DNA from: Stigmatella erecta
Lineage (GTDB): Bacteria > Myxococcota > Myxococcia > Myxococcales > Myxococcaceae
DNA length: 64,000 nt
Direction of reading: 5' to 3'
Assembly: GCF_900111745.1 (NCBI RefSeq)
Contig: NZ_FOIJ01000003.1
Location: 558,001 to 622,000 of the forward strand
This document shows positions 1 to 18,623 of the stretch, piece by piece. Positions within the stretch are counted from its first letter, which is position 1, and every line of letters begins with the position of its first letter. The notes beneath the pieces are model-generated. The model was given only the letters and a program-made list of their open reading frames with translations, was not told the origin of the DNA and searched no databases. A program made the position numbers and the translations under genes.

Positions 1-378
1 CGCCAGAAGGCCGTCGCCCTGTCGTCATTGGCGAGCGAACCGTTCATCCTGTTTCCCCGGCACTCGGCTCCAGGCCTGCACGACACGATCACGAGCATGT
101 GTCTCGGCGCGGGCTTCTCGCCGCTCATCCGCCAGGAAGCCAGCTCTTGGCCCTCGGTCGTCGGCATGGTGCAAGCGGGACTCGGGATCACCATTGCCCC
201 GATGTCGGCTCAAGCCCTGCGGCCACAAGGGGTAGTATTCAGGGAGCTGAGCGGCGGCTCCGCCTGGGCGAAGCTGGCGGTTGCCTTCCGCGGTCCACAC
301 CTCATGCCTGCGGCGGCGCACTTCCGTGCGATCGCGCACGAAACCATCACGCTGGCCCAGGCCTCCCTCCCATTGTGA
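1..378 (+). CDS. LysR-family regulator, C-terminal part (5' end outside window)
   Basis: Only the last 125 codons are visible and the reading frame is already open at base 1. They look like the second half of a LysR substrate-binding domain: a segment with the VGMVQAGLGITIAP pattern typical of the effector-binding fold, then the usual C-terminal helix. The DNA-binding helix-turn-helix lies outside the window. LysR proteins are cytoplasmic regulators that normally act on a neighbouring gene. Here the nearest downstream genes are a 43-codon ORF and an NmrA-like oxidoreductase on the same strand, separated by a palindromic site. The ligand cannot be inferred. Confidence 0.75.
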   Translation, partial: RQKAVALSSLASEPFILFPRHSAPGLHDTITSMCLGAGFSPLIRQEASSWPSVVGMVQAGLGITIAPMSAQALRPQGVVFRELSGGSAWAKLAVAFRGPHLMPAAAHFRAIAHETITLAQASLPL

Positions 379-436
379 CGAACCAGTGAGCGATGCGTAC
401 TTGCCCAGTTGCGCTCCATCGTTACACCCCTTACTT

Positions 437-468
437 GTGACAACGGAACGCCACCGTTCCATCGTTAC
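437..468. promoter_or_regulatory. Imperfect 32-bp palindrome, candidate operator
   Basis: Two 14-base arms around a 4-base centre match at 11 of 14 positions, with a perfect GGAACG/CGTTCC core and GTxAC ends. The site lies just upstream of the small ORF at 483 and downstream of the LysR gene, where an operator for the 483-1459 transcription unit would be expected. Which protein binds it is unknown. Confidence 0.4.
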
Positions 469-482
469 CGGGAGGATGCGAG

Positions 483-614
483 ATGGACATCCAGAAGAAT
501 GCCGAGGCTCGCGCCTCCGCCGAGCACCTGTTCCGGCCGGGGTTCGCGGCGTTGCGCCAGGACATAAAGGACTTCGTGGAGCGCTGCATCGACTCGGAGG
601 AGGTGCGGTCATGA
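483..614 (+). CDS. Small 43-residue ORF translationally coupled to the oxidoreductase
   Basis: The ATG at 483 follows GGGAGG at a 7-base spacing, and its TGA at 612 overlaps the ATG of the next gene at 611 (ATGA). The product is a soluble helix-forming peptide rich in Ala, Glu and Arg, with one Cys and no recognisable domain. It could be a real small protein, a coupling leader for the downstream gene, or the shortened remnant of a longer gene. The strong ribosome-binding site and the exact stop/start overlap argue that it is translated. Confidence 0.5.
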   Translation: MDIQKNAEARASAEHLFRPGFAALRQDIKDFVERCIDSEEVRS

Positions 615-1459
615 ACAAGCCTCGGATTCTGGTGACGGGCGGTACGGGCAAGACGGGAGCGCGGCTGGTGCGGAGGCTGCGTGAATTGGATTGGCCGGTG
701 CGGCTCGCGAGCCGCTCGGGCAAGGCGCCCGAGGGGGTGGAGGCCGCGCGCTTCGACTGGCTGCGGCCGGAGGGCCATGACGCCGTCCTGGAGGGCGTGG
801 AGCGGGTCTACCTCGTCGCTCCCGAGGGAGTGCCCGATCCGGGCGCTCCCATGAAAGCCTTCATCGAGCGGGCGCTTGGGGCGGGGGTGCGCCGCTTCGT
901 GCTGCTCAGTTCCTCGGCGGTTCCCGAGGGGGGACCGTTCATGGGCGGACTGCATCGCTTCCTGCACGAGCGCGTGCCAGAGTGGGCGGTGCTGCGCCCC
1001 TCGTGGTTCATGCAAAACTTCTCCGAGGGCCCCGCCCGGGACTCCGTGCGCGACGAGGATGTCCTCTATTCAGCGGCGGGCGAGGGGCGCGTGCCCTTCA
1101 TCGACGCGGGAGACATCGCGGAGGTGGGCCTCCGGGCACTCATCGACCCGGCGGCGCACAATATCGATCACGTGCTCACCGGGCCCCGGACGCTGAGCTA
1201 CGCGGAGGTGGCCGACATCCTTGGCGCGGCGCGGGGCCGGGCCGTACGCCACGTATCCATGTCCGAACAACAGTTCACCGCGTATTGGATACGCCACGGA
1301 CTGCCGCCAGACTACGCCGCGCTGCTGTCGGCCTCGGATGTGGCCATCTCCAAGGGGACGGAGGACCGAACGACCGACGCCGTGGAGCGAGTGACGGGAC
1401 GGCCCCCACGGGATTTGGTGGACTTCGCCCGGGAGACCGCCGCAGTCTGGCGCGCCTGA
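611..1459 (+). CDS. NmrA-like / atypical SDR NAD(P)-binding oxidoreductase
   Basis: This 282-residue protein opens with a Rossmann glycine motif (ILVTGGTGKTGARLVRRL, residues about 5-22), the TGxTGxxG form used by atypical short-chain dehydrogenases of the NmrA/HSCARG and ergot-alkaloid-reductase-like group. The usual later elements are present: VRRFVLLSSSAV, then LRPSWFMQNF, the signature of NAD(P)H-sensing or quinone-reducing members. The start at 611 overlaps the stop of the preceding 43-codon ORF. Members bind NAD(P)H in the cytoplasm, and some reduce quinones or imines while others only sense redox state. The substrate cannot be told from sequence. Confidence 0.8.
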   Translation: MNKPRILVTGGTGKTGARLVRRLRELDWPVRLASRSGKAPEGVEAARFDWLRPEGHDAVLEGVERVYLVAPEGVPDPGAPMKAFIERALGAGVRRFVLLSSSAVPEGGPFMGGLHRFLHERVPEWAVLRPSWFMQNFSEGPARDSVRDEDVLYSAAGEGRVPFIDAGDIAEVGLRALIDPAAHNIDHVLTGPRTLSYAEVADILGAARGRAVRHVSMSEQQFTAYWIRHGLPPDYAALLSASDVAISKGTEDRTTDAVERVTGRPPRDLVDFARETAAVWRA

Positions 1460-1507
1460 GGTTGCCCCTGCCCGGCCGCGTCCGGTGGGACCTGCAGACC
1501 GCTCAGC

Positions 1508-1533
1508 GTGGGTTCGATTGCCGCCGCCTCCAC
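1508..1533 (+). repeat. tRNA/tmRNA 3'-end-like sequence, candidate attachment-site remnant (left)
   Basis: GTGGG-TTCGATT-GCCGC-CGCCTCC has the layout of a T-arm plus acceptor 3' strand, but no matching 5' half lies upstream and the T-stem has mismatches. A related copy is at 7967-7992 (21 of 24 bases identical over the core). The stop codon of a decayed integrase lies about 16 bp away. That is where a phage-type attachment site is expected, so this is read as an old att half-site. It is not a functional RNA gene. Confidence 0.45.
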
Positions 1534-1548
1534 ATTTTTACGCTGTGC

Positions 1549-1835
1549 TCACGGGTGGTTAGCGGTTCCTTCCGCCCGTGTTGCGTCAGTGTTGCGTGCC
1601 GACGCAAGAGGCAGGTCAAGAACACCGACCGCCTCCCGCCGGGTGCCAGCTCAGGTGGGCATAGCGCATCGTCATGTCGATCGTGGCGTGCCCCGTTAGC
1701 TCCTGAATGACCTTGAGCGGGACGCCCTTCATCGGAAGGTGGCTGCCGGAGGTGTGGCGCAGGTCGTGCCAGCCGATCCGCCCCTCCTCCCGGCCAATGT
1801 CCGTCCGGTTTGGTCGGGCTCAGCGTGAAGGTTGC
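1549..1835 (-). pseudogene. Decayed phage-type tyrosine recombinase (integrase), C-terminal part
   Basis: On the minus strand the catalytic C-terminus of a tyrosine recombinase can be read only by changing frame. One frame gives GRIGWHDLRHTSGSHL, with the R of the HxLRH box. It continues to ELTGHATIDMTMRYAHLS, with the second catalytic His and the nucleophile Tyr. A one-base shift is then needed to reach a tail RREAVGVLDLP and the stop at 1549. Upstream, a piece resembling SPTKPD lies in yet another frame. The N-terminal half is missing: the sequence runs straight into a phage polymerase fragment. The gene is dead. Confidence 0.75.
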
Positions 1836-1839
1836 CGCC

Positions 1840-2390
1840 GTTCGTGACGCCGCGTGCCTCCTCTTCCTGCTTGAAGAAGACGTCGATCGTGTGGCGCGCG
1901 TCGCGCTTCGGGTACTCGACCGCTTCGACCGGCCAGCACTCAACCGGGATGCCGTCGAGTTCCCCATAGCGTAGACGCCACGCCAGCGGGTTCTTTTTGT
2001 CCTCGCTGATGTTGAGGCACAAGTAACGCTTCATGAGCAGCGTGAGCGGATACCGAACGCCTTCGTCATCGTCGAGCTTCCCGCCAGTCGTTAGGTCGAC
2101 GCCGTGAAGCCCTTCGCAATATCAATCAGCGCTTCGCGGATGGCCACGTCATGAAAGCAGCCCGCGTCGAGCGCATCGACGATGGGATCAATCAGCCACG
2201 GGTTGCCAGCGGCCATTACCTCAAGCTCATAGGGGAGGTTCGCTCCGACAAGATGAACGTCACGGTTTCTGATTGCGTTTGGTGAAGAACTGGCGGGCCC
2301 GCTCTTTGTCTAGCAACCGTTCGCTTCCGAATTCACGAGTCGCAATGCTGCCGCACACGAACGGGGCAGAAACAAGCCCGGGCGCTTGTG
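1840..2390 (-). pseudogene. Decayed phage family-A DNA polymerase, 3'-5' exonuclease region
   Basis: Three minus-strand segments in different frames join into one recognisable region. They are a segment ending near ERARQFFTKRNQKP, a segment GANLPYELEVMAAGNPW followed by REALIDIAKG, and a segment with LMKRYLCLNISEDKKNP, RLRYGELDGIPV and DARHTIDVFFKQEEEAR. These match the layout of the exonuclease domain of phage-encoded DNA polymerase I-like proteins (HN/GAN-xPYE motif, later ExAxDAR motif). At least two frameshifts and the loss of the whole polymerase domain mark it as a pseudogene. It abuts the integrase remnant, which implies a deletion. The family assignment rests on remembered motif patterns. 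Confidence 0.6.
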
Positions 2391-2610
2391 ATGAGTCTCA
2401 GTATCAAACGACCAAATCTTCAAGGGGCGCCGTGCTTTCATTGTAGGGGAAACTGCTCGTTTCGTGAGCCACCCGCCGACAGTTCACGCCGTCAGTCGAC
2501 TTGGCGGGCACGTCAACGTCACGGGAGGCACAGTCGTGGCGACGCGGATGGGATAAATGTATACCAATCCACAGCCAGAACGCGATGTGTTGAGCTGGTG
2601 ACTGCTCAGT

Positions 2611-2639
2611 TTGACTTGCGAGATTTACTTCACTAAAGA
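2611..2639 (+). promoter_or_regulatory. Candidate sigma-70 promoter for the small secreted protein
   Basis: TTGACT and TAAAGA are separated by 17 bases. The predicted transcript start (about 2646) lies some 40 bases before the ATG at 2685, leaving room for the AAAGGAG ribosome-binding site. Confidence 0.5.
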
Positions 2640-2684
2640 GAAGGCGACGTCTAGCATTCGAGTCTCACCCAAAGGAGAGCCAAT

Positions 2685-2984
2685 ATGCTTAGTCATGCAC
2701 TCGCATCGTTCGCTGTTGCCGCCACACTGATGCTTCCGCTGGCTGGGCGGGCCGAGTGGCCAGCAGGCAAGAAGGGGGCATATATGGAGCAGTGCGTTCA
2801 TGTTGCTCAAGTGCAAGGTGTCGACGCGAGCACGGCCACTGCGCACTGCAAGTGCGGAGCGGATGCCATCGAAAAGAATTTCACGACTGCTGAAATCGAG
2901 GATCTCGACAGCAAAGACGGCGTGGATGCGAAACTGATGCAACGCGCGCAAGCTGCGGTCAAAAAAGCCTGCGCCCCGAAGTAA
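2685..2984 (+). CDS. Small secreted Cys-containing protein, unknown function
   Basis: This 99-residue protein has a clear signal peptide (residues 1-23: charged start, VAATLMLPLAG core, cleavage near GRA-EW). A hydrophilic mature part follows with three cysteines, one alone near residue 37 and a CKC pair near residue 57, plus a fourth at residue 96. It has an excellent AAAGGAG ribosome-binding site 7 bases before the ATG and a plausible promoter at 2611. Its base composition is visibly less GC-rich than the surrounding chromosome, which fits foreign origin. It is the one clearly intact gene among phage-gene wrecks. No family is recognised, and a periplasmic or extracellular location is likely. 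Confidence 0.7.
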   Translation: MLSHALASFAVAATLMLPLAGRAEWPAGKKGAYMEQCVHVAQVQGVDASTATAHCKCGADAIEKNFTTAEIEDLDSKDGVDAKLMQRAQAAVKKACAPK

Positions 2985-3202
2985 TGATGTAAGTGACAAG
3001 GTTTACACGTCAATGCAGGTGCGTTCCTAACGTCGTCGACGCGCTGGAGTGGGTGGTGCGGCGGATTTGCGCCTCACTCCCCTGCGTCAAGTCGGCCTCA
3101 GATCCACCGCTGCCTACTCTTCCCCCAAGAAAGCGCGTCGGCGAGCGCCAGGAGCCTTGCGCGCCTGCTCGACTTGGGCGAACTGCTCGTCGCTTTGAGA
3201 CT

Positions 3203-3271
3203 GTTTCGGTAGGGGGCATCCCTGGTAGGCTGCTCCTCAAGCGAGGAACTGGCGAGTCCACCTACCGAAAC
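3203..3271. repeat. 11-bp inverted repeat at the end of the helicase pseudogene
   Basis: GTTTCGGTAGG at 3203-3213 is repeated as its exact complement CCTACCGAAAC at 3261-3271, with 47 bases between. The right arm contains the helicase stop codon. It may form a long hairpin in RNA or mark an old recombination junction. No terminator T-run is present. Confidence 0.35.
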
Positions 3272-4110
3272 TGGCTCTTACGGAAGGCGTCAATCAGCTC
3301 GTCGGTGTGCTGGTACAGCTCGATCTCTCACTCGTCGGCAGCCTGGCCCTGACGGTGAATGCGGCCTATTGCCTGTTCCCAAGCGGCGCCGTCGGCGGGC
3401 GGATTCACGAAGAGCATCCGCGAGAACATCGAGCGCTTGCCGGTTTCACGAATGATGGTCGCTGACGCTTCCTTCCCGCCCCCGTAGATGGGCACGCCCA
3501 CCACCTTCGCGATGCGCTCGCCGAGTTCAAGGACTCCACCCAGATGATTCCCGGCTGGCCCTTGCGCGTTGCCCACTTCGAGGCATCGTTCACAATGAAG
3601 TCGGAGAGCCACACGCTTTCCGTGACGTGAACGACGCTCTTGTGGATCTCCTCCCACGACGGCCATGAGTCGGCGCGCCACGTTGGAAGCTCCCCATCGT
3701 AGGGCGGCACCTGATGGACACGGATGGCGGCGCGCACGAGCAGCCAGGAGGAGTCGAGATGCTCAGCGGGCCGCTTGAGCCGCTCGCGGTTGAACTCCTG
3801 ACGGCGCGCGAACCAACGAAGGCTCAGCTCGGGATCCTGGGGGGGCTCCGATGTCCGGGTAGTGCCAGCGATGAACGAAGTCACTGGCGAGTTGCCGGGC
3901 ACAGACGACCCTTTGAAGCTCGTCGACGAACTCCTCCCCGTCAGGGCGCTGCCCACCAAGCGCGGTAGCGATGTGCACGAGCAGCTCGGCCGGAACGGGC
4001 CCAAGAGGGGGAGTATCCGGAGGGAGCGCACCGCAGGCGGTTCGTTCGCGAGCATCTCGGGCGCACGGGCCACGGGCGCAGCACCTCCCTTGAGGCTCGG
4101 AGCATGGGAC
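3262..4110 (-). pseudogene. Decayed phage superfamily-2 (SNF2/DEAD-like) helicase
   Basis: Minus-strand pieces in several frames form one helicase. They are HIATALGGQRPDGEEF, then RLKRPAEHLDSSW, then a conserved region with DFIVNDASKWATRKGQPGI, then GERIAKVVGVPIYGGGKE and FSRMLFVNPPADGAAWEQ, ending in IGRIHRQGQ, the motif-VI arginine-finger box. Just after it an in-frame TGA interrupts a segment that resumes as EIELYQHTDELIDAFR and stops at 3262. At least two frameshifts plus this nonsense codon mark it as inactive. With the polymerase and integrase fragments it is the remains of a prophage replication module. Confidence 0.7.
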
Positions 4111-4689
4111 TTGTCATCAGAAAGCAGAGGACCGCTGAGACGCGCGCCCATGCGCGTGGGCTTGCCCCGATTGGGTGGCTCTCCCCGATGGCGGACGGGG
4201 CCCATCACCCAGGCCAGCCAGGTGCATTGGCTGCCCTGGGGCCAGCTTCACAAGGCGGTCCGCACGGGCCAGCCGATGACCCGGCGGGTGCTGGGAGCCG
4301 AGGGTTGGGTCAAGAACGTCCTCCATGACTGGGACGAAGAGGTCGCCCGCCTTCAGCGCGAGCTGGCCGAGACCGGGCAACCTCCTCCTGCCCCAGTTCC
4401 GCCCACGCTTGAGGGAACCAAGATGTCCACCGCCGTCGATGCGGAGCGCTACTCCTGGTGCAATGGCGCGGCGCTGACGGCGACGTGCATGAACGGCAGT
4501 GGTTCCCAGGTGCTGGCCACCGTGACGCCCCCCCGGTCGAGCTTTTCCGGAAGGACGGCCCACGCGCTCGTGCGTTCGGCGTCCCGGCGAAAGAACCCAC
4601 CGGCTAGGAACTGGGAGCTGACGTGATGGGTTCGATGCCTTCACGCAGGCGGGGAAACCTGGAGTGAGAATGTATGATGAAAATCGCTC
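4111..4689. other. 580-bp stretch without a confident gene
   Basis: A plus-strand frame stays open through most of this stretch. It contains two short patterns reminiscent of plant/bacterial O-methyltransferases (a W-x-x-L-x-x-AVRTGQP segment near 4225-4275 and KNVLHDWDEE near 4312-4341), but they are far too close together and lack the SAM-binding glycine motif between them. If related, this is a deletion remnant. No start with a ribosome-binding site or complete domain is visible. Confidence 0.3.
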
Positions 4690-4693
4690 ATGC

Positions 4694-4722
4694 TTGAGCT
4701 CGGTATTAGTGTCTGCTATAGG
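4694..4722 (+). promoter_or_regulatory. Candidate sigma-70 promoter for the VOC/dehalogenase-like operon
   Basis: TTGAGC and TATAGG are spaced 17 bases apart. The expected transcription start, six to eight bases after the -10 box, falls at or within a base or two of the ATG at 4729. This implies a leaderless mRNA and argues against translation from the ATG at 4690. Confidence 0.5.
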
Positions 4723-4728
4723 ACAAAC

Positions 4729-5337
4729 ATGTCCATCCAGCACATCGACCACATCACCTACGTAGCTGCGGCCGAGGACGAGAACAACTTCATCGCACGG
4801 TGGGGACTGCTTGGATTCAAGGAATATGTCCGGGTCCACACCCCACGATATCCTGCCGCGCATATCGCTTTGGCGAGTGGCGATGATCCCAACTTTCCCT
4901 GGGCGATGATGACAGGCCTCTCGGTCAGTGATGATCCGAAATCGCCCATCAACCTGTTTGTCCAGCGTTACGGCGCAGGACCGCAGCACGTGGCCTATAA
5001 CATCGGGCCTGGCGAAGACATGGAAGAGCTCCACCGCAAGCTGGTGGCCCGCGGTTGGCGCTTCATGACCGGGGTTCTCACTTACCGTGACAGCACCGGT
5101 GCTGGGATTCGCCAGATGTTCGTGGCGCCTCAGGTTCCGTATGGTCCCTTCTCCGAGCTCGTCCAGCGGATTCACGGTCCGTCGGGTCAGCCCTTTGACG
5201 GGTTCGATACCACCAATATCGACAATCTGTATGAGGCCTATTCCGACTACAGCGCTCACCTGGAGAATCGGAAGTCCACGCCGGTCTGGACCGGAGCGGC
5301 AACCCCTCCTGGCAACCGCGTGCTCACCCTCGAATAA
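4729..5337 (+). CDS. VOC-superfamily protein (glyoxalase / hydroxyphenylpyruvate-dioxygenase N-domain-like)
   Basis: This 202-residue protein starts SIQHIDHITYVA, the first beta-strand of vicinal-oxygen-chelate domains with the candidate metal-binding His. It continues with a GPQHVAYNI segment (second His) and later DSTGAGIRQMFVAPQ, which resembles the metal-ligand strand of 4-hydroxyphenylpyruvate dioxygenase relatives, although a clear third Glu ligand is not obvious. An in-frame ATG exists at 4690, but the promoter and homology favour 4729. It sits 11 bases before the dehalogenase-like SDR gene and both are probably one transcript, so a shared pathway is likely. A dioxygenase or isomerase role is inference. 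Confidence 0.7.
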   Translation: MSIQHIDHITYVAAAEDENNFIARWGLLGFKEYVRVHTPRYPAAHIALASGDDPNFPWAMMTGLSVSDDPKSPINLFVQRYGAGPQHVAYNIGPGEDMEELHRKLVARGWRFMTGVLTYRDSTGAGIRQMFVAPQVPYGPFSELVQRIHGPSGQPFDGFDTTNIDNLYEAYSDYSAHLENRKSTPVWTGAATPPGNRVLTLE

Positions 5338-5348
5338 GAAGGACTCAC

Positions 5349-6047
5349 ATGAACGGACGATTGCGTGGACGCCGGGTGCTTGTGACCAGCGCGGACCGGT
5401 ATGCAGGCCCGCCGGTCTGCGAACTCTTCACCAAGGAGGGGGCCGAGGTCATCGCCGACACGAGTAACTACCTCGATCCCAAGGCCCCCCAACGGGTCAT
5501 CGATGCAGCGGGACGGGTCGACGTGCTCGTGGCCAACTTTGCCGGGCCCCTGAGGATCACGCCCTACTCGAAGATGCTCGGAAAGGTCCAAGAGTTCGCC
5601 GACGAGGACTTCCAGGCCTACCTGGACGAGATCGTCTGGCCCATGGTCCGCTTCGTTCGCGCGGTGCTTCCGCAGATGATCGAGCGCCGCTCCGGAAAGA
5701 TCGTGGCCTTCACCAGCGCGGTTGCTGTCCGGGCCATTCCAGGGCTGGCGGTCTACTCCGCGGCACGGGGGGCTCAGAACGCCTTCGTTCTGGCCACCGG
5801 CGCGGAGGTGGCCCCGCACAACGTGCAGTTCAACGCCATTGCCCCGTCTTACTTGGAGAACGTCACCTACTTCACCCCGGCGATGCTCGCCGAGCCGGGA
5901 ATGCGCGCTTCGCTCGTGGCCAACATTCCGGCCGGCCGGACCGGCGAAGGGTATGAAGCCGCCGAGCTGGCCCTCTCGCTCGCCACCGAGGCCAGCAACT
6001 TCATGGCGGGACAGGTCATCTCGATGGCCGGAGGCTGGTGCACCTGA
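5349..6047 (+). CDS. Halohydrin-dehalogenase-like short-chain dehydrogenase family protein
   Basis: This 232-residue SDR-fold protein has neither the normal glycine-rich cofactor motif nor the YxxxK dyad. It carries T13-x4-Y18-x-G20 at the N-terminus and S123-x12-Y136-x3-R140. Those are the signatures known for halohydrin dehalogenases (T-x4-F-x-G halide loop; Ser-Tyr-Arg triad), except that the loop Phe is Tyr. The later NAIAPSYLENVTYF and MAGQVISMAGGW segments also resemble HheC around its halide pocket. Halohydrin dehalogenases convert vicinal haloalcohols to epoxides and reopen epoxides with small anions, without NAD(P). GAAGGA lies 5 bases before the ATG. True substrate unknown; an ordinary divergent SDR is the alternative. 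Confidence 0.7.
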   Translation: MNGRLRGRRVLVTSADRYAGPPVCELFTKEGAEVIADTSNYLDPKAPQRVIDAAGRVDVLVANFAGPLRITPYSKMLGKVQEFADEDFQAYLDEIVWPMVRFVRAVLPQMIERRSGKIVAFTSAVAVRAIPGLAVYSAARGAQNAFVLATGAEVAPHNVQFNAIAPSYLENVTYFTPAMLAEPGMRASLVANIPAGRTGEGYEAAELALSLATEASNFMAGQVISMAGGWCT

Positions 6048-6194
6048 GGGGGCTTACTCGCCCAGTTCCGAGTCCCACTCTGGCGGCAGCCCATGCGCCG
6101 CACCCCGGGCCGGCTCCGATCCCACCCGGGATTGGGGGTGACAGTGCCCAGGCGTTCACTGACACTCGCGCCGCTTTGTGCCACCGAGGATGAA

Positions 6195-7667
6195 ATGTCG
6201 GCGACGTCGAACGGCGATGTGACCCAGGCCCTGCTCGCGCTGTGCGGAGACAAGGCCCGCTGGAAGCACGAACTGACCGCGGAGGCCGTGAAGAAGGCCG
6301 TCGCCGAAGGCGCGGACCTGAAAGGGCGCGACCAGAATGGCCTGACGGCCCTGCATCTCGCGGTGCAGGGGCCCTCCGCGAAGAGCGATCCACTCCCCAG
6401 CGTCGACGTGGTGCGGGCGCTCATCGATGCGGGCGCGGATGTGAACGCGCGCGACAACTTCCAGCAGCCCCCGTTGCTGCACGCCGTTCCCTCGGAGACT
6501 TCCCAGGCCTACGAGGGCCAAGCCCTGAAAATCGTCCGCATGCTGCGCGAGGCCGGAGGCACGTTGCCCTCGGACGTGAAGGACGGGTTCAGCGGCGCGT
6601 TCAAGACGACGACCGAGGTGCTCTACCGGGAGATTCTCGACGCGGGCGCGGCCATCGACGCGAGGGACCCCCAGGGGAAGACGCCGCTCCACCGCTCGGC
6701 GGCCATCGGCTGGCCGGCCAGCGCCAGGTTGCTGCTCGAACGCGGAGCCGAGGTGAATGCGCTCGACGCGTTGGGCCGCACGCCGCTGGGCGTGGCGCTG
6801 CGCACGAAGGAGGAGCCCTGGGTCGCGCACAACAAGCGCACGCCCGGCTTCAACGCCGTCATCAGCGCGCTGGAGGCCGCCGGAGGCAAGGCGAGCATTC
6901 CCTTCCCGCACGACCCCACGGACCCGTTCGCGCCCTTCCCCATCGACGAGGCCACGCTGGCGAAGGCGCTCATGGGCAAGAAGCTCTCGTTCAAGCACGC
7001 GGTGAGCTCGGCGCAGGAAGTGGCCACGGGGTTGCACAGCTTCGGTGAGCCGAGTGCTGCGCTGGACAAGCTCAAAGCCTTGAGTGGCGCGCTCGAAGTG
7101 GAGGAGCGGAAGGTCCGGCTGAAGGGCCCGCTGACGCTGCAGCGCGCCTTCTTCCACCACGGCGATCTGGAGGTGGACGGCGACCTGACCATCCAGAAGC
7201 CGTTCGCGGTGACGGGGGATGTCATCGTGCACGGCGTGGTGTGGGACGCTGGAAATGACTCGCTCGTGAACATCCTGGGCGACCTGAAGTGCCATGCGCT
7301 CTTCACCGACGGAGAGTTCAGCGTCGGGGGTGGCATCGAGGCGCGCGACGTGGTGCTCGGCTACTACAACGACCACATCCTGAGTGCGGACACCATTCGG
7401 GCCAAGGTCGTCATCGAGGATGAACACGCCGTCGATGCCACCATCGAGGCCGAGCACCACTTCGACATCGACACGTACGCCCAGGGCCATGGCGAGGGCG
7501 TGGCCGAGGACCTCCGAGCCATCTTCGTCGACCAGGTGTTCGAGGACGCCGAAGAGCCGGATGAGCCGGAGTTGGGCGAAGAGGAAGAAGCGTCTTACCT
7601 CGACAAGGGCGCGCTCTTCGACCGCATCAGCAAGGGGCTACCCGTCTTCCGCAAGAACAAGAAGTAG
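6195..7667 (+). CDS. Ankyrin-repeat protein with C-terminal beta-helix-like region
   Basis: This 490-residue protein has at least three ankyrin repeats in the first 240 residues (GLTALHLAV...LIDAGADVNARD; EILDAGAAIDARDPQGKTPLH; LLLERGAEVNALDALGRTPL). A linker follows, then a region of about 150 residues of short strand-turn repeats (HHGDLEVDGDLTIQ, VTGDVIVHGVVW, LGDLKCHALFTDGEFSVGG) that looks like a right-handed beta-helix. The tail is acidic, then Lys-rich. No signal peptide is visible, so it is probably a cytoplasmic scaffold. The ATG at 6195 has GAGGA 4 bases upstream; an earlier in-frame ATG at 6093 lacks one. The function is unknown. Confidence 0.75.
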   Translation: MSATSNGDVTQALLALCGDKARWKHELTAEAVKKAVAEGADLKGRDQNGLTALHLAVQGPSAKSDPLPSVDVVRALIDAGADVNARDNFQQPPLLHAVPSETSQAYEGQALKIVRMLREAGGTLPSDVKDGFSGAFKTTTEVLYREILDAGAAIDARDPQGKTPLHRSAAIGWPASARLLLERGAEVNALDALGRTPLGVALRTKEEPWVAHNKRTPGFNAVISALEAAGGKASIPFPHDPTDPFAPFPIDEATLAKALMGKKLSFKHAVSSAQEVATGLHSFGEPSAALDKLKALSGALEVEERKVRLKGPLTLQRAFFHHGDLEVDGDLTIQKPFAVTGDVIVHGVVWDAGNDSLVNILGDLKCHALFTDGEFSVGGGIEARDVVLGYYNDHILSADTIRAKVVIEDEHAVDATIEAEHHFDIDTYAQGHGEGVAEDLRAIFVDQVFEDAEEPDEPELGEEEEASYLDKGALFDRISKGLPVFRKNKK

Positions 7668-7689
7668 TAGGAAGGACAGGAGCCCTATT

Positions 7690-7870
7690 GGGCGCGCGGA
7701 CAGAGCTCCTCTTTTCTCCAGCAGGCGCAGCATCCAATGACGCACCACCCGCAGCACTCTGCTTGCGTGGGCGGAGGCAACGGCTCGAAGCGCACACCGC
7801 CCTCTCACGGCACGAAGACGCCGTCCGGCACCAGCGAGTGAAAATGAGGCGTGACCTGCAAAGCTCTACA
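7690..7870 (-). pseudogene. IS91-family (Y2-type) transposase remnant
   Basis: Minus-strand translation gives VTPHFHSLVPDGVFVP, the highly characteristic HxHxLVPDGVF block around the metal-binding histidines of IS91-like transposases. It is followed directly by an in-frame TGA, then EGGVRFEPLPPPTQAE. After a one-base frameshift comes VLRVVRHWMLRLLEKRGAL. A stop, a frameshift and loss of both ends make it non-functional. It lies just inside the right-hand att-like repeat and no terminal inverted sequences can be made out. Confidence 0.7.
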
Positions 7871-7966
7871 CCCACTGCCTTGCCGTCACATGCACCCGCT
7901 TCACGTTGCAGAAGGGGCACACCCCTCGTCATTGGCTTGGATCGCTCTCGCCAGAAGCTCCGAGCG

Positions 7967-7992
7967 GCGGGTTCGATTCCCACCGCCTCCCA
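7967..7992 (+). repeat. tRNA/tmRNA 3'-end-like sequence, candidate attachment-site remnant (right)
   Basis: GCGGG-TTCGATT-CCCAC-CGCCTCC again resembles a T-arm plus acceptor end without any 5' half. It matches the copy at 1508 at 21 of 24 core positions. Its right edge touches the stop codon of the DUF5953-like gene. Together the two copies bracket the 6.4-kb accessory region. Confidence 0.45.
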
Positions 7993-7993
7993 C

Positions 7994-8752
7994 TCAGCCC
8001 GGAGTTACGCGCCCGCCAATCTCCGGGAAGCGCTTATACGCACGCAAGAGCGCCTCAAGATGCGCGGAGTTGTCGAGATCGAGCGGCGTCTCCGTGAGCC
8101 GAACGACCCATCCGCCCGTCGCAGTGCGCCGCGCCCGAGAGAGCAAGTCCGCATCGCGGACAGGGTCCGGGAACCTGATAGCTTGTGCAGCGGCTGCCGA
8201 CCAGTAATTCAGCCACCCTAGGTGATGGGGAATCGCTGGCGAGGGAATGTGCTGGGGGAGGTTGAGCGCTGGGAGCCCCCGGGGCGGGACATGCGGCTGA
8301 TCCATCGAGTGACGAATTTGTTTCGCCATCTCCGGAGCCACGCCGTTCGGCAACACGCGCCCCCAGAACGCGCGTGCGCCTTCCGCCACGCCTTCCAGCA
8401 CATCCGCCGCCGCCGCGATGCTGGCCGCATCCAGCGGCAGCTCTGCGTGGACTTCAAATTGTGACTGGCCGCCTGCGCTGAGGCCCGCAGGTCTTCCCCA
8501 CCCCGTCACCGTCACGGGGTAATTCTCGTCGCCGTTGCACAGCAGCGGGAATTTCCCGCGCGCGCTCGCCTCAGCGAGCCACCCATCACGTTGCGGCAAC
8601 GCGATAGGCCGTCCCGCCCGTGATAGCTCCCACTCCAAGCGCACACCGGGGAGTGCCCGTTCGATTCCGTGGGCGGCTGCGAGCGTGCGGCCGTCGTTGC
8701 TCACGAGCGCAGGCGCGTAGACGATGAGGATCAGGGAGCTCTGCTTGGTCAT
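7994..8752 (-). CDS. DUF5953-like protein, probable partner of the upstream toxin-like gene
   Basis: This 252-residue soluble protein has no signal peptide (start TKQSSLILIVYAPALV). It contains mid-protein motifs VTGWGRPAGLSAGG and HHLGWLNYWSAAAA that I associate with a Myxococcales-restricted uncharacterised family (DUF5953). The ATG at 8752 overlaps the stop of the preceding gene (ATGA), so the two are translationally coupled. Its place after a nuclease-toxin-like lipoprotein suggests an immunity or chaperone role, which is inference. The gene ends at the edge of the att-like repeat. The family name comes from memory of similar proteins. Confidence 0.6.
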   Translation of the reverse strand: MTKQSSLILIVYAPALVSNDGRTLAAAHGIERALPGVRLEWELSRAGRPIALPQRDGWLAEASARGKFPLLCNGDENYPVTVTGWGRPAGLSAGGQSQFEVHAELPLDAASIAAAADVLEGVAEGARAFWGRVLPNGVAPEMAKQIRHSMDQPHVPPRGLPALNLPQHIPSPAIPHHLGWLNYWSAAAAQAIRFPDPVRDADLLSRARRTATGGWVVRLTETPLDLDNSAHLEALLRAYKRFPEIGGRVTPG

Positions 8753-9459
8753 CGCTTGCACCCCGTAACGACAATGTTGAGGGTGAAATCCCGTTCGAGC
8801 AATGCGTCTTTGTGCTCTTGGGTGCTCACCCCAACGACGAAGCCATATCCACATGCCGTCGCGATGTCTCGCTCTTCCTGCAACAACGGCACTTGCCCCA
8901 GGATCGTCTGCCGCCGGATGAAGGCATTGTACGTGTCGAATTGATGGGTCTTGATCTCCCACAGTACACGCGTGCCGGCTTGCAGCGCATCAAAGCGCTT
9001 GCCTCCAACGAGCACGTCATTGCCGGGGTAGCGGTTCGGCGGAAACCTGTCAGCGCACGCGTTATGCGGGGCATCCTCGCCCGCGTGCGGCACCGGGATG
9101 GGCTCGCACTCAGGACTGCGCTCCGTCGTCACTGGGGCAGGCGGGGCCCTACTGTTTCCTCTGGACTTCTCTCGTGTGGGGTTCGCCTCCGGTTCCTGCG
9201 AGGCCCGAGGAGCGTCTCCGGCCCAAAGGCCCGGCTCCCGGGTGGGCGGCAACACGCGCTTGTGCGGGCTCCGCGGCAAGGGCTGTGAGCGAACCTGCCC
9301 TGGCTGCCCGCGGGTGGGGAGGCCCGTGCCGGGGACAACGGGTGGGCGCACAGGCGCCCAAGCGTAGGTCTCAGGCACCTCTTGAGAAGTGGCGCACCCA
9401 GCTACGACCACAGCAACGGCAACGGCTTGGCGGAGTGCGCTGCAAGTTCGGAAGTTCAT
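8749..9459 (-). CDS. DUF6310-like lipoprotein with PD-(D/E)XK nuclease-like C-terminus
   Basis: This 236-residue protein begins with a lipoprotein signal (VAVAVVVAGC lipobox, residues 12-21). A Pro/Arg-rich disordered linker follows. The C-terminal domain contains DVLVGGKRFDALQAG, then TRVLWEIKTHQFDTY, then RDIATACGYGFVVGV. The D...EIK arrangement is the PD-(D/E)XK core, and the segment strongly resembles restriction-endonuclease-fold toxin domains of polymorphic toxins. It may be a surface-anchored or exported nuclease, with the coupled downstream gene as partner. An alternative is a non-catalytic lipoprotein of the myxobacterial DUF6310 family. Enzyme activity is inferred only from the motif. 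Confidence 0.65.
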   Translation of the reverse strand: MNFRTCSALRQAVAVAVVVAGCATSQEVPETYAWAPVRPPVVPGTGLPTRGQPGQVRSQPLPRSPHKRVLPPTREPGLWAGDAPRASQEPEANPTREKSRGNSRAPPAPVTTERSPECEPIPVPHAGEDAPHNACADRFPPNRYPGNDVLVGGKRFDALQAGTRVLWEIKTHQFDTYNAFIRRQTILGQVPLLQEERDIATACGYGFVVGVSTQEHKDALLERDFTLNIVVTGCKR

Positions 9460-9800
9460 TCCACGTCCTTTCGGGGCACGGCGAACTGACGAAATCCATG
9501 AGGAGGGCCCGGCCCCCTGGGCCCACCCTCAACCAGCGTGGCCCCCTTTCGGCGCCCCTGCCAGCTTCCCCGTCCCAGGAGGCGAGGCACGCTGGGATGC
9601 TGGACCTGTGTTCACCGCTCCGCCTGGCGGTCGAAGCGCGGATCGTCCGGGTGCCGGGCCAGCTTGAGGGCCACCGGCGGCCCCTCTGTCTGCCCAGCCA
9701 AGCTCCTTGACGTCGGCTCCCCCCCATGAGGTTGTCCCGGCCGACCGCCTCGCACGAAAGGGCCCACACCGGCACGGCTGGTGGTATCACTGGCCCTGTC
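9460..9800. other. Divergent intergenic region between the DUF6310-like gene and ileS
   Basis: This 341-bp stretch separates two divergent genes and should hold both promoters. A TTGACG element is seen near 9707 but no convincing -10 box at the right distance. I see no T-box leader, RNA gene or repeat. Confidence 0.4.
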
Positions 9801-13541
<3,741 letters not shown>

Positions 13542-13548
13542 GCCGGCC

Positions 13549-15459
13549 TCACGGCTGGTAGTGGAGGATGGAGCCGCCCGCGCCGCCGATGCGCGGCTCC
13601 TTCCCCGCGCCCCACAGGGCGTTGAAGCGCCCGCCATAGGGCACGGTGGCGCCTGTCCAGGTCTTCCCGTCGTAGTGGTGCAGCTTGGTGAAGGCCTTGG
13701 GGATGCCCTGGATGAACTCCTCCCCCGCTTCGAGCACATAGATGTCCGAGGGCCCCGTGCCCCAGATGCCCACGAGCTCGCCCTTGGCGAAGGGCACCCA
13801 GGTCTCCCAGCGCTTGCCATCGAAGTGCCGGATGCTGCCCTGGGCGCCCACCACCCAGACATCGTCCGGCCCCGTGCCCCACACGTCCCGGAAGGCCTGC
13901 CGGGTGGGCTTCTCCCAGGAGACCACCTTCCAGGCGGTGCCCTCGTAGTGCAGGAGGGTGCCCAGCTCGCCCACGGCCCACACGTTCCGGGCGTCCGTTC
14001 CCCAGACCTGGGTCAGCGTCAGCGAGGTGGGGCTCTCGCGGACACTCCAGTCCTGGCCGTCATAATGAAGGATGCGCCCCTGCGTCCCCACGGCCCAGAT
14101 GTCCGCGGGGCCGGAGCCCCAGAGGCCCCGGAGCGTTGCCCCGCCGGGAACGTGCCGCCGGAGGGCCGCCGCCGTGCCATCGGAGCGGACAATCGTCTCC
14201 TCGTCGCCCACGGCCCAGACCTCTTCCGGGCTCGCGCCCCAGACGTCCTGCAGGGCCGCCCCCGTGCCGCTCGCCAGGGTGCTCCACTCCCCCTCGCGCC
14301 AGCGCAGCAGCATGCCCTGCTCCCCGCAGGACCAGGCCTCCGCCGCGCTCTGTTCCCAGCCGCCCAGGACGGTCTTGCTGGCTCCCTCGCGCATCGACAC
14401 CCAGCCGGTGTCCGTCTTGCGCACCACCTGGCCCGAGTCGCCCACCATCCAGAGCCCCGCCTCGCGCGAGGCCCACACGTGGGCGAGGTTCTCCGGCACG
14501 TCCAGGAAGTTCAGGGCAACGCCCTCGGGCCCAATGTGGAGGGCAGCCCCTTCCGGTCCAGCCACCCACGCTTCGTTCGCGCTCAGCGCGGCGATGCTGG
14601 TGAACCGCCGGCGCTCCTCGTGGACCACCTGCCATTCGCCCTTCTCGAAGCGGAGCACGCGCCAGATGCCCTCATCGACCTTCTCGTCCAGGGCCCACAG
14701 CACGCCCTCGGCGCCGCTCAGGCTCCAGACGCGATCGCTCGCGAAGCCCGGCTCGGGCACCCAGGCCTGGCCGTTCCAGCGCCACACGTTGCCCTCCGCG
14801 CTGATGACCCGGACATCGTCCGGCGCGAAGCCCCAGATGCCCGTGTAGTAGTGCGGCAGGGCATCCGGAGGCCGCGACCAGTCCGTGCCATTCCAGTGCA
14901 GCAGCGCCCCGCCGGAGCCCACCACCCAGATGTCCTCGGGACCGCTGCCCCAGACGGCCAGCAGCAGCTGCGTGAGCCCCGTGCCCACCGCCTGCCAGGC
15001 CTTGCCGTTCCAGCGCACCACGGCGCCCTCGCGGCCCACCGCCCAGACATCCTCCGGCCCCGTGCCGAACAGGGCCAGCAGCGACTGGTCCGTGGCCGAG
15101 CGGTGAATCTTCCAGTTCTGGCCGTCCCAGTGGGTCGCCATGCCCGGCGCCCCCACGGCCCAGACATCGTTGGGCGCGGAGGCCCACACGGCCCGGTAGT
15201 AGTGCGCGTGCGGGGTCGGGTTCTCCCAGCACCAGTTCTCGTCCAGGCAGAGAGTGGGCGCCACGGCCGGCGGCTGCTGGGACTGCTGGCAGGTGGCCCC
15301 GGGCTGAACGCACATCTGCGTCGCCTCGCAGCACGTCCACCCGTCCCCACAGGGACAGGACCGGTCGTCCAGGGACAGGGGGGCCACGCACGCGCCCAGG
15401 AGCAAGCCGAGCAGCGCGGCCAGGGAGACTTCGACACGGGGCGTCCACGCGGGGCTCAA
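13549..15459 (-). CDS. Repeat-rich lipoprotein (beta-propeller-like), last gene of the sigma/caspase operon
   Basis: This 636-residue protein starts at a TTG that overlaps the stop of the caspase gene (TTGA). A lipoprotein signal ends in the lipobox LLGAC near residue 24, followed by a Cys-rich stretch (SCPCGDGWTCCE). The rest is about 13 repeats of some 40 residues built on W-G-x-G-P-x-D-(V/I)-W-V-V-G...G...H-x-(D/N)-G-x-x-W. These resemble kelch/BNR/WD-like propeller blades and should form one or two propellers on the cell surface or in the periplasm. As the fourth gene of an overlapping operon it may be an interaction partner or target of the caspase; this is inference. Confidence 0.85.
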   Translation of the reverse strand: MSPAWTPRVEVSLAALLGLLLGACVAPLSLDDRSCPCGDGWTCCEATQMCVQPGATCQQSQQPPAVAPTLCLDENWCWENPTPHAHYYRAVWASAPNDVWAVGAPGMATHWDGQNWKIHRSATDQSLLALFGTGPEDVWAVGREGAVVRWNGKAWQAVGTGLTQLLLAVWGSGPEDIWVVGSGGALLHWNGTDWSRPPDALPHYYTGIWGFAPDDVRVISAEGNVWRWNGQAWVPEPGFASDRVWSLSGAEGVLWALDEKVDEGIWRVLRFEKGEWQVVHEERRRFTSIAALSANEAWVAGPEGAALHIGPEGVALNFLDVPENLAHVWASREAGLWMVGDSGQVVRKTDTGWVSMREGASKTVLGGWEQSAAEAWSCGEQGMLLRWREGEWSTLASGTGAALQDVWGASPEEVWAVGDEETIVRSDGTAAALRRHVPGGATLRGLWGSGPADIWAVGTQGRILHYDGQDWSVRESPTSLTLTQVWGTDARNVWAVGELGTLLHYEGTAWKVVSWEKPTRQAFRDVWGTGPDDVWVVGAQGSIRHFDGKRWETWVPFAKGELVGIWGTGPSDIYVLEAGEEFIQGIPKAFTKLHHYDGKTWTGATVPYGGRFNALWGAGKEPRIGGAGGSILHYQP

Positions 15460-16988
15460 AACCGTCCTCCCAGCTGCACCCCGGCCAGGTCCGGCCCGGC
15501 CACGGGGAGCGCCTCGGCCGGGGCCCCCGGCCACAAGAGCATTCCCAGCCCCGCCCCCGCCGCGAGGGCGCCCGCCACGTACAGGGTGGTGGAGCGGTGG
15601 TTGAGGGTGCGAATCCGCTGGTTCTGGCCCATGGCCTCGGCATGGGGCAGCGTGGCCCGGTTGCCGGAGCGGGCCTCCCGCGCGGACAGCGTCGTCCAGA
15701 GCCCTCCGCCCAGGCTCGCCCCCGCCAGCCCCAGCGCGCTCCAGCCCGCCACCCGGCGCCACGTGGGCCTCCGCCGGGAGGGCTCGGCCTCCAGGAGCAC
15801 CGGCGCCTGGAAGTCGTACGCGTCCACCGCCTGCCGGTCATACGGCAGCGAGAAGATGAGGCTGAACGCCTCGTGCTCCGCGCCGCGGTCCGCCGTCCGG
15901 GCCTGCTGCGGCGTGAGCGCGGCGAGCTGCACCACCTCCGGCATCGAGTCGATGCGGTACTCGCGGCCGTCCCCCATGCGCCGCAGGTAGAGCGGGCCGG
16001 TGCCAATGGGCCGCGCCAGCCACGTCCGCTGGCCGGAGGCATTGTGGAAGTCGGCCAGGCGCACCCCCCGGCTGTCCTCGAGCCGCAGGTGCTGGGCCTC
16101 CTGCCCATCCACCTCGATGCGGTGCTCCATCGCCTTGCCCAGCACCACCAGCCACGTCCCGTCCTTCGGCGGCCGGGCGTGGACCTGGGGGCGGAAGCGC
16201 TCGTTGGGAATGGCCGCATTCGCACGCTCCACGAAGGCGGCGATCTCCCGGTAGCTCACCCGTCCGTCGCCATCCACGTCCGCCGCGCCGTAGAGCCCCG
16301 AGCGGACCTCGTGGCTGAAGACGCCCGACTGGAAGGCCTCCCACTCGTGGCTGGCCCGCGCGCTGGAGGTCGACAGCAACAGCCCCACGCGCCCGTCTTC
16401 CGACAGCTGCGCCACCTCGCTGAACCCCTTCAGGGGCCGGCGCTGGCCGCCCGGGCCTCGCCCGTAGGCCAGGAAGTAAGAGGAGCACGCGTCCACGATG
16501 AGGTGGACCTGATCGGACTCCACGCGCTGGATGAGGCCCTTGGCCAGGTCCTCTCCGGTGAGCCGCCGGTCCTCCAGCGTCACGTAGCCCTGGCCGTTGT
16601 GCACGCTGCCGTGGCCCGCATAGATGAAGTAGACGACGGTGCCCAGGTTGCGCGCGCGCGCCTGGGCCACATCCCGCGTGAGCTGCTCCACCAGCCGCTG
16701 CCACTCGCCCCAGTTCGGCACGCTGGCTTCCGCCGCCGCCTGAGGGTGCAGCCGCTCCGTGTTCTGGTCCATGCGGGCCAGCAGGTACGTGCGCGCGCCG
16801 AGCAACCGGAACAGGTCCTGGTAGCGCGCGGCATCGTCGTCCGCGTAGCGCAGGGGAAGCTCGTCCGCGTCCACGCTCCGGTTCACCCCGACGATGAAGG
16901 CGAAGGTGGCCTGGGGGCGCTCCTCCGCCCCCGCGGCCCCCGCCACCAGCAGCACGGCAAGGCCCAGGGCCTCGCGCGTGAACCTCAC
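15456..16988 (-). CDS. Periplasmic/membrane caspase-family (C14) peptidase
   Basis: This 510-residue protein starts at a GTG overlapping the previous stop (GTGA). Residues 1-21 form a signal peptide (ALGLAVLLVAGAAGA). The caspase-fold domain begins FAFIVGVN, with the catalytic His at 126 in YFIYAGHGS and Cys at 168 in LIVDACSS, the expected dyad. A loop with DVDGDGRVSYRE (about residues 245-256) looks like an EF-hand calcium site. Two hydrophobic segments near the C-terminus (WSALGLAGASLGGGLW and LYVAGALAAGAGLGMLLW) could anchor it in the inner membrane. Its operon with a sigma factor and anti-sigma factor suggests signal-controlled proteolysis outside the cytoplasm. The substrate is unknown. 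Confidence 0.85.
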   Translation of the reverse strand: MRFTREALGLAVLLVAGAAGAEERPQATFAFIVGVNRSVDADELPLRYADDDAARYQDLFRLLGARTYLLARMDQNTERLHPQAAAEASVPNWGEWQRLVEQLTRDVAQARARNLGTVVYFIYAGHGSVHNGQGYVTLEDRRLTGEDLAKGLIQRVESDQVHLIVDACSSYFLAYGRGPGGQRRPLKGFSEVAQLSEDGRVGLLLSTSSARASHEWEAFQSGVFSHEVRSGLYGAADVDGDGRVSYREIAAFVERANAAIPNERFRPQVHARPPKDGTWLVVLGKAMEHRIEVDGQEAQHLRLEDSRGVRLADFHNASGQRTWLARPIGTGPLYLRRMGDGREYRIDSMPEVVQLAALTPQQARTADRGAEHEAFSLIFSLPYDRQAVDAYDFQAPVLLEAEPSRRRPTWRRVAGWSALGLAGASLGGGLWTTLSAREARSGNRATLPHAEAMGQNQRIRTLNHRSTTLYVAGALAAGAGLGMLLWPGAPAEALPVAGPDLAGVQLGGRF

Positions 16989-17752
16989 GGTTCCACCCGC
17001 ATGGGGAAGGAGGTGTTCTCCGCGCCCGGCAGGGGCAGCGGATCCGAAGGGGCGCGGCCCTCCATCAAGGCCTCGGCCTGCTTCACCGAGATCCGCTCGT
17101 CGGACAGCACGCCGTGGAGCACCAGCCGCTTTCCATCGAAGGTGTGCGAGATGGCCTCGGGCAGCTCGTGCAGCGCCATCCCCTCGAAGGCCTGCACTGC
17201 CAGCGGGTTCGTGTCCGGGTCGGACCAGCTCGGGTGGAACCAGTACACGTGGTTGTGCTCGTCCACCCCATAGATGAGGAGCCACTTCCGGGCGCGCGGG
17301 TTCTGATAGGCGAAGGCCAGCTCATCTCCCGGGCGAATCGCCTCGCCCACCGCTTCGGCGGCCAGGCCCGGCCGGACGCGGTAGACGCGCAGGGCCTCGG
17401 AGGAGGCCGTGGCGGCGCCTCCCCGCGCGGTGAACCCCTCCGTGTGGGCGAAGGGATCCGGCCGCGTCGCCATGACGCCCAGGACGAGCACGGCCAGCAC
17501 GCTGAACGCCGCGGCCGCGGGGGCCACCGGCAGGGGGGGCCGGACCAGTCCCAGGCCCTGCCCCAGGCGGTCCTGGTCTCCCCTGCTGGACTTCGGGTCC
17601 AGGCGCCGCAGCAGCAGGTGGCGCTCGTAGATGGACTTGCACGCGCCGCAGCCCGGCAGGTGCTCGCGCAGCGAGTGCTCTTCCCGAGGCTTCAGGCGGC
17701 GGGCAAAGTGGTTGTCGACGTGCCCGCGCATGGGGCAGCTCACGGTGTTCAT
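16985..17752 (-). CDS. Zinc-finger anti-sigma factor with DUF4384-like periplasmic domain
   Basis: This 255-residue protein begins CPMRGHVDNHFARRL and continues to HLPGCGACKSIYERH, the H-x3-C-x2-C pattern of zf-HC2 anti-sigma factors. One membrane segment follows (AAAAFSVLAVLVLGVMA, about residues 76-92). The C-terminal domain outside the cytoplasm has GDELAFAYQNPRARKWLLIYGVD and VYWFHPSW, resembling the DUF4384 domains that accompany caspase-like proteins. It would hold the neighbouring sigma factor inactive until an envelope signal arrives. Its ATG overlaps the sigma-factor stop and its stop overlaps the caspase GTG, so stoichiometric production is implied. Confidence 0.8.
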   Translation of the reverse strand: MNTVSCPMRGHVDNHFARRLKPREEHSLREHLPGCGACKSIYERHLLLRRLDPKSSRGDQDRLGQGLGLVRPPLPVAPAAAAFSVLAVLVLGVMATRPDPFAHTEGFTARGGAATASSEALRVYRVRPGLAAEAVGEAIRPGDELAFAYQNPRARKWLLIYGVDEHNHVYWFHPSWSDPDTNPLAVQAFEGMALHELPEAISHTFDGKRLVLHGVLSDERISVKQAEALMEGRAPSDPLPLPGAENTSFPMRVEP

Positions 17753-18345
17753 GGTGTGTCCCCTTCGCGCAGGAGAAAACGCTTGAGCAGCGCACGGATG
17801 CGCATCTCTTGATAGGCCAGCGTGGTCCGGTGGATGCCCAGCTCCCGGGCCGCATCTCGTTGAGGAAGTTGCCGCAGGAAGCGGACCTCGAAGACCCCGT
17901 GCCACTTGGCCGGCAGGCACTCGCGCTGGAAGCGCTCGATGAGCAGCCGCGCGTCGCTCTCCTCGGAGAACTCCCGCGTCTCGGTGGACTCCTGCATGCC
18001 GAGCCCTCCGGCCTGCTCCAGCGCGCCTTGCTCCCGCTGCTGGCGCCGCACGTAGTCGAGCGCGAGGTGGTAGGCCACCGTGGCCATCCAGGCCTTGAGG
18101 GAGCCGCCCCGGAAGCTGCGGCGCAGCTCCTCGCGGGAGATCAACCGGTAGAAGACCTCATGAATGACGGTCTCCTGGTCGGCCCCCGACAGCACCCGCC
18201 CCACGGCGCGCTGCACGGTGGGGTAGAGCTCCCGGTAACACCGCTCCAGCACCGGGCGGTTGCCGGCGTGGAACCCTGTCAGCCAGAGCTCCTCGCGTTC
18301 CGCGCCCAGGCCGGAATAGAGCGCATTGTCGGTTTCCACCCGCAC
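17749..18345 (-). CDS. ECF-type RNA polymerase sigma factor
   Basis: This 198-residue protein has a sigma-2 region (RCYRELYPTVQRAVG, then ETVIHEVFYRLI and SLKAWMATVAYHLALDYVRR) and a sigma-4 helix-turn-helix (LRQLPQRDAARELGIHRTTLAYQEMRIRALLKR). The GTG at 18345 is preceded by GGGGAGG at a suitable spacing; an in-frame ATG lies at 18411. It heads a four-gene unit in which every junction is a 4-bp stop/start overlap. It is expected to be held by the zinc-finger protein encoded next and to direct RNA polymerase to its own promoter and a small regulon. No clear promoter consensus was identified upstream. Confidence 0.8.
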   Translation of the reverse strand: MRVETDNALYSGLGAEREELWLTGFHAGNRPVLERCYRELYPTVQRAVGRVLSGADQETVIHEVFYRLISREELRRSFRGGSLKAWMATVAYHLALDYVRRQQREQGALEQAGGLGMQESTETREFSEESDARLLIERFQRECLPAKWHGVFEVRFLRQLPQRDAARELGIHRTTLAYQEMRIRALLKRFLLREGDTP

Positions 18346-18623
18346 GCCCACGCCTCCCCATGTTGCTTGCAAGGTGGGATTTAGGGGCGGCCCTCCGCAC
18401 GGCAACCCCACCCCTCCCCTCTTCCGGGAAAAAGGTGTTCAGCGCCGGACGCGAAGCGGCTGGCACGAAAAAGAAAAAAAGATTCGTCCAGGTTTCCCTA
18501 CCCGAGCGCTTCACCCCTGAAAGCCAAGCAAGGCAACCTCAGTGGGGGACATCGGTGAGAACGGCGGCGGCGGTGGGTGGGGCGGAGATGGGGCGGGGGT
18601 GGGGCGGGCGGAGCCAGGAGCGC

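Follow-up and report, generated by a model that had tools for sequence, protein, structure and literature searches.

The locus raises two questions: whether the second of two adjacent genes in the genome of Stigmatella erecta encodes a halohydrin dehalogenase (HHDH), and what the metalloprotein encoded by the first gene contributes beside it. HHDHs interconvert halogenated alcohols and epoxides; they are valued and industrially used biocatalysts, and their role in nature is largely open. We suggest that the two genes probably form a self-contained cassette for the detoxification or catabolism of a halohydrin or epoxide, which is the most likely of the readings weighed here. In what follows, the window is the whole stretch of DNA that was analysed (64,000 nucleotides), and the features that bear on the argument are these:

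4424 to 4542, plus strand: remnant (119 bp) of a propeller-like gene, 86.6% identical to the gene at the lactonase-pfkB site
4659 to 6054, plus strand: relocating two-gene unit, given as the block shared with other carriers; left edge at 4659 with genome G003 and at ~4691 with G004 and G034
4693 to 4724, plus strand: candidate promoter, TTGAGC-17 nt-TATAGG, ~6 nt before the ATG, as for a putative leaderless-type start
4729 to 5337, plus strand: first gene, VOC metalloprotein with a single domain that is similar to the C-terminal half of 4-hydroxyphenylpyruvate dioxygenase (HPPD); 202 aa, with H8, H87 and E143
5338 to 5348, plus strand: intergenic gap of 11 nt with a Shine-Dalgarno-like AGAAGGA ahead of the second gene
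5349 to 6047, plus strand: second gene of the pair, HHDH by sequence; 232 aa, SDR fold, on a branch next to types B and D
6051 to 6072, minus strand: possible remnant (22 bp) of the end of a pfkB-type gene, 95% identical to the sequence after the G003 cassette; a weak match

The two open reading frames (ORFs) lie on the same strand. For the VOC ORF, an alternative upstream start is available at ATG 4690; however, 4729 is the likely start because the orthologues also have a start codon at the equivalent place, right behind the promoter-like pair. In the alignment with three orthologous loci, this pair reads TTGAGC, TTGAGC and TTGACC followed by TATAGG, TATAAG and TATCGG, with the spacing constantly at 17 nt, while a strict sigma-70 scan gives no score to the pair before the VOC start. 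The GC content of the unit is 62% compared with 69% for the window.

Assignment of the second gene to the halohydrin dehalogenases

The preliminary description had read the second gene as HHDH-like based on the spacings S123-x12-Y136-x3-R140 and T13-x4-Y18-x-G20 and on the loss of YxxxK and of the glycine cofactor loop. Both sequence and phylogeny support this reading. Using the published motif definitions (T-X4-F/Y-X-G and S-X12-Y-X3-R; PMC4989007), a regular-expression scan of the ORF finds each motif exactly and only once, motif 1 as T13-SADR-Y18-A-G20 (TSADRYAG) and motif 2 as SAVAVRAIPGLAVYSAAR, and the S123/Y136/R140 triad is kept in all orthologues. The classical SDR signatures TGxxxGxG and YxxxK are absent, with S14, Y18 and R140 standing in place of G14, G18 and K140. 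The description had named a place deep within ordinary SDRs with an intact NAD(P) pocket as evidence against its own reading; in the sequence, the nucleophile-pocket motif of HHDHs stands where SDRs have the NAD(P) loop.

In a homology set drawn from 84,980 species genomes, both motifs are present in 20 of the 22 relatives of the B and D types, the remaining two being a fragment and a sequence gapped at the motif-1 site, while they occur together in none of the ~58 ordinary SDRs of the same set. Their co-occurrence is, therefore, not a matter of chance. Nineteen enzymes chosen by the HHDH motifs proved active (PMC4989007). Among solved structures, the top relatives are HheD2, HheD8 and HheB (43-46% identity over the full length, E ~1e-50); all of the best PDB matches are HHDHs, and ordinary SDRs match at E ~1e-20. 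The AlphaFold2 model of the enzyme (pLDDT 81; of low certainty for the inserted loop 71-78, residues 127-130 and the C-terminal residues 228-232) has HheD2, HheB and HheD8 as its top nine Foldseek matches, and its VIA Z is 27-27.6 against HHDHs compared with 25.2 for the best SDR. The residues of the Gly-rich loop are replaced as in HHDHs, and loops 71-78 and 127-130 are modelled too poorly to define the shape of the pocket.

In an ML tree that took in, besides SDRs, the window enzyme with its orthologues, L030, the B and D types, HheC and 6a41, all HHDHs split from the SDRs (support 100/99), and the window enzyme is not among the ordinary SDRs. With its three orthologues it forms a clade of its own (100/100) that is sister to the group of L030, a relative from the Dehalococcoidia, and the B and D types (98/86); it lies outside both the HheB and the HheD clades. 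HheC and 6a41 are on a separate branch and have 26-33% identity to the window enzyme. Identity to the B types is 42-50% and to the D types 39-47% (mean 44%), whereas B and D types have a mean mutual identity of 52%. Because its identity to both is lower than this mean, the window enzyme is neither a B nor a D type. A 7-residue loop insert at about residues 73-79 is peculiar to the window clade; P166 and T122 stand where the B and D types have Gln and Gly, respectively, and motif 1 has Tyr (Y18). As judged from sequence comparison, this separate HHDH branch next to the B and D types is part of the novelty of the locus.

A common fold and ~30% identity are shared by all SDRs and would also fit an ordinary SDR in which drift removed the lysine and the cofactor loop and convergence produced the likeness to HHDHs. 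However, the tree places the enzyme inside the HHDHs with a fully supported split, both HHDH motifs are exact, N171 and Y174 are invariant residues also found in the B and D types, and dN/dS is ~0.1; we consider such an origin highly improbable. Motifs, phylogeny and predicted fold together place the second gene in the cofactor-independent HHDH family, and HHDH activity is the predicted function of its product.

A VOC protein related to the C-terminal domain of HPPD

The VOC metal-protein partner in the preliminary description is borne out and can be specified further. In an alignment with full-length HPPDs of related genomes, to which a homologue with two domains was added from another phylum, the VOC protein aligns over the whole C-terminal domain of HPPD. 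The HPPD motifs DH, QH, Q, E(IV)QR and GF...N are kept, and H8, H87 and E143 align with the HPPD metal ligands as a 2-His-1-Glu triad. By contrast, the NEP motif, the insertion between the QH and LLQIF segments and the N-terminal half are absent. The alignment establishes the VOC protein as one of the HPPD C-terminal-domain type with the three predicted metal ligands retained, and the intact triad implies that it is probably catalytic. It is not an HPPD proper, covering only the C-terminal half and reaching 24 bits (E 2e-5, model positions 156-276) against a cut-off of 277 for TIGR01263; the match to PF13669 (E 2.5e-5) is slightly below the cut-off. Since a complete, separate HPPD is encoded elsewhere in the genome, the VOC protein is not the housekeeping enzyme. 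An HMM-HMM comparison with HPPD gives a short stretch only because the VOC alignment is nearly without diversity. The structure model, computed from a single sequence with few relatives, has a pLDDT of 36, and the putative active site is taken from the alignment alone.

Kinship to HPPD makes a possible oxygenase no less plausible than an enzyme that opens epoxides, and for this reason we keep an oxygenase-first reading as the main rival. Here, an aryl- or alkyl-keto acid would be turned into an epoxide or a hydroxylated compound by the VOC protein, working as an Fe(II) oxygenase. The HHDH would use chloride, cyanide or nitrite to open the epoxide, and the end product would be a small halohydrin or hydroxynitrile. 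Such a synthetic direction is consistent with the HPPD catalytic domain being covered, including the metal triad, the substrate-side Gln and GF...N, with the VOC gene being the first of the unit, and with the opening of epoxides by HHDHs with many anions (PMC4989007). It is at odds with the three HPPD elements that the protein lacks, and the surroundings of the intact loci examined revealed no further biosynthetic gene, carrier protein or exporter. We regard it as unlikely, and prefer the reading as a detoxification or catabolic cassette.

Joint inheritance and relocation of the pair

The VOC pairing, whose recurrence the preliminary description had named as a check, is recurrent yet lineage-bound: it recurs in every carrier of either gene in the phylum but is not general to HHDHs. 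The HHDH and VOC genes are found in the same five of 195 genomes of the phylum and are always adjacent; four carriers belong to the window's own genus and one to another genus of the family, and neither gene is found alone in any of the 195 (Fisher P 4e-10 for co-occurrence, a statistic that ignores kinship). The pair is intact in four carriers, and in the fifth, G005, internal deletions have shortened both genes. By contrast, whole-genome searches with the VOC query that recovers the known copies in the phylum gave no VOC gene in any of the 22 genomes with other B/D-type HHDHs. Similarly, no VOC gene was detected near other HHDHs in 80 loci with flanks of up to 8 kb (tblastn and profile search), and no conserved neighbour gene was found for the other B/D-type HHDHs. 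VOC relatives were absent from viral contigs and, at E 1e-6, from 398 genomes of the phylum to which the Polaromonas locus belongs, while a search of 301 genomes in the phylum that includes the Dehalococcoidia locus gave one two-domain HPPD-like relative. Within the genomes searched, the pairing is confined to one bacterial family. Of two-domain proteins, the one closest to the VOC protein is L132:1486-2580 in G322, which is HPPD-like but divergent and falls far short of the HPPD cut-off (30 bits against 277). A match in a Vibrio NRPS cluster (27%) was rejected as a relative because it is only a general VOC protein.

The unit has not stayed in one place. When positions 1-20000 of the window are compared with the G003 and G034 loci, the unit is the sole nucleotide match (88-94% identity over ~1.4 kb), and the comparison with G004 gives the unit and one short unrelated match. 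It is flanked by lactonase and pfkB genes in G003, by a kinase gene and Gmx_para in G004, and by pectate-lyase-like and astacin genes in G034; G004 and G005 share their surroundings, including a kinase gene that has the cassette on one side in G004 and on the other side in G005. As the flanks differ, the unit occupies four distinct genome sites. With unrelated flanks, no metabolic partners nearby and a promoter-like element of its own, the unit seems independent of its neighbours. The remnant in G005 (L028:8700-9410) lies across the kinase gene from the intact copy of G004 (L027), as by local relocation or differential loss.

In the window's genome, the site corresponding to that of G003 (contig C25) is without the cassette and reads lactonase, propeller-like gene, pfkB. 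A complete, secreted propeller-like gene (L134:2287-3384) sits where G003 has the cassette. The propeller-like remnant beside the window's cassette, perhaps together with the 22-bp pfkB-end match (E 7e-4 in a small search), suggests that the cassette originated from such a site. The unit showed no recognisable transposase, integrase or terminal repeat, and no integron-type ends or repeats were seen by eye at the cassette edges in the boundary alignments. Window positions 1-4700 hold few convincing genes besides that of an NmrA-like NAD-binding protein (281-1459); this region contains gene remnants and looks remodelled. Elsewhere in the window are a gene for a DUF6310 protein with an N-terminal extension (8749-9459, on the opposite strand upstream of ileS; PF19829, E 3e-56) and one for a CotH kinase-domain protein (18360-20294; PF08757) in a myxobacterial-type genome.

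With IleRS as the one comparator gene, HHDH dS within the genus is ~2 to 2.6 times that of IleRS (0.19 vs 0.07 for G000-G003 and 0.32 vs 0.15 for G000-G004), whereas toward the other genus it is no higher than that of IleRS (0.27 vs 0.29, 0.20 vs 0.30 and 0.21 vs 0.32). This pattern is as expected if copies crossed between genera. Thus, the compact unit has changed place and probably also host.

Both genes are under purifying selection, with dN/dS of 0.07-0.17 for HHDH and 0.10-0.19 for VOC. The pair has been inherited, relocated and lost together. Because the shared block spans only ~1.4 kb, some linkage on relocation is expected in any case, and drug-binding resistance proteins exist among VOC-fold proteins. 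The two products might, therefore, share a transcript and nothing else, the VOC protein being a binding or resistance protein that catalyses no connected step and is co-inherited through the small size of the fragment. The absence of either gene alone from the 195 genomes, the similar purifying selection on both genes, their joint decay in G005 and the intact metal triad all argue against this, and we rate it as slightly less likely again than the synthetic direction.

Proposed role and relation to known systems

In the detoxification or catabolic cassette that we favour, the HHDH would interconvert a vicinal halohydrin and its epoxide according to the mechanism of the family (PMC4989007), with S123 holding the hydroxyl, Y136 acting as acid/base and R140 lowering the pKa of the Tyr. 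The pocket formed by T13, Y18 and G20 together with the P166-S167-Y168-L169 loop would bind the anion, which is a halide or, when the epoxide is opened, may also be cyanide, nitrite or azide. With less confidence, the VOC protein, carrying Fe(II) or another divalent metal, may catalyse the step that directly precedes or follows that of the HHDH on the same compound; most likely, it would clear a reactive product, as the epoxide hydrolase does beside HheC. We infer this shared compound from the strict linkage of the two genes, taking the operon of HheC and its epoxide hydrolase as the model (PMC11976700). Overall, the cassette would serve to detoxify one particular halohydrin or epoxide from soil, or to consume it. 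No halogenase, transporter or regulator gene was seen near it.

More tentatively, the enzyme may represent a new functional HHDH subtype that shares a two-step pathway with a single-domain HPPD-type metalloenzyme of a new class, in a unit that is mobile between genera and serves detoxification or biosynthesis; we hold this wider proposal to be possible rather than probable. If this is correct, the VOC protein would be the first genetically fixed partner of an HHDH that is not an epoxide hydrolase, and the natural substrate of the enzyme could be found. A paired and selected unit of only two genes with an apparent promoter of its own offers a short route to this substrate, and the search is aided by closely related strains that carry or lack the unit and by one decaying copy. 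The loop insert and the altered pocket residues also provide a distinct scaffold for enzyme discovery.

Among known HHDHs, HheD2 (PDB 7b73) and HheD8 (PDB 8xxb) resemble the window enzyme in full-length alignment, motifs and fold. However, the HheD types lack the insert at 73-79, have Q, G and F instead of P166, T122 and Y18, fall on a separate branch and have no conserved partner gene. HheB (PDB 4zd6 / 5b12) is 44% identical, shares the motif-1 Tyr and has the highest structural Z, but lacks the loop insert and groups with L031, L033 and L034 apart from the window clade. The closest enzyme outside the cassette-carrying family is L030 (Dehalococcoidia MAG, Chloroflexota, PQAO01000024.1; 55-57% identity), in which TS precedes the triad, a feature shared with the window enzyme. 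It differs in lacking the insert and in having Q at 166; its neighbours are acyl-CoA dehydrogenase, beta-lactamase-fold and SIR2 genes, and VOC is present neither nearby nor in its genome.

The VOC protein shares the pattern DH...QH...Q...E...GF..N and the metal triad with the HPPD C-terminal domain, whereas HPPD has in addition an N-terminal domain, the NEP motif and the internal insertion. A literature search for HHDHs in Myxococcus or clustered with a glyoxalase-type protein gave nothing relevant, and a VOC-type HHDH partner is of a kind without report in the literature searched. As of 2016, only two HHDH genes were known in an operon with an epoxide hydrolase (PMC4989007). On the conjugative plasmid pSA2 of Novosphingobium resinovorum (L114), a 43%-identical HHDH relative annotated as 'SDR family oxidoreductase' directly adjoins an epoxide hydrolase gene amid many catabolic genes and is a further such pair. 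A parallel to the arrangement described here is HheC of Agrobacterium radiobacter AD1, which is 26% identical to the window enzyme and is likewise an HHDH in a two-enzyme unit, with an epoxide hydrolase instead of a VOC protein as its partner and a predicted role in detoxification (PMC11976700).
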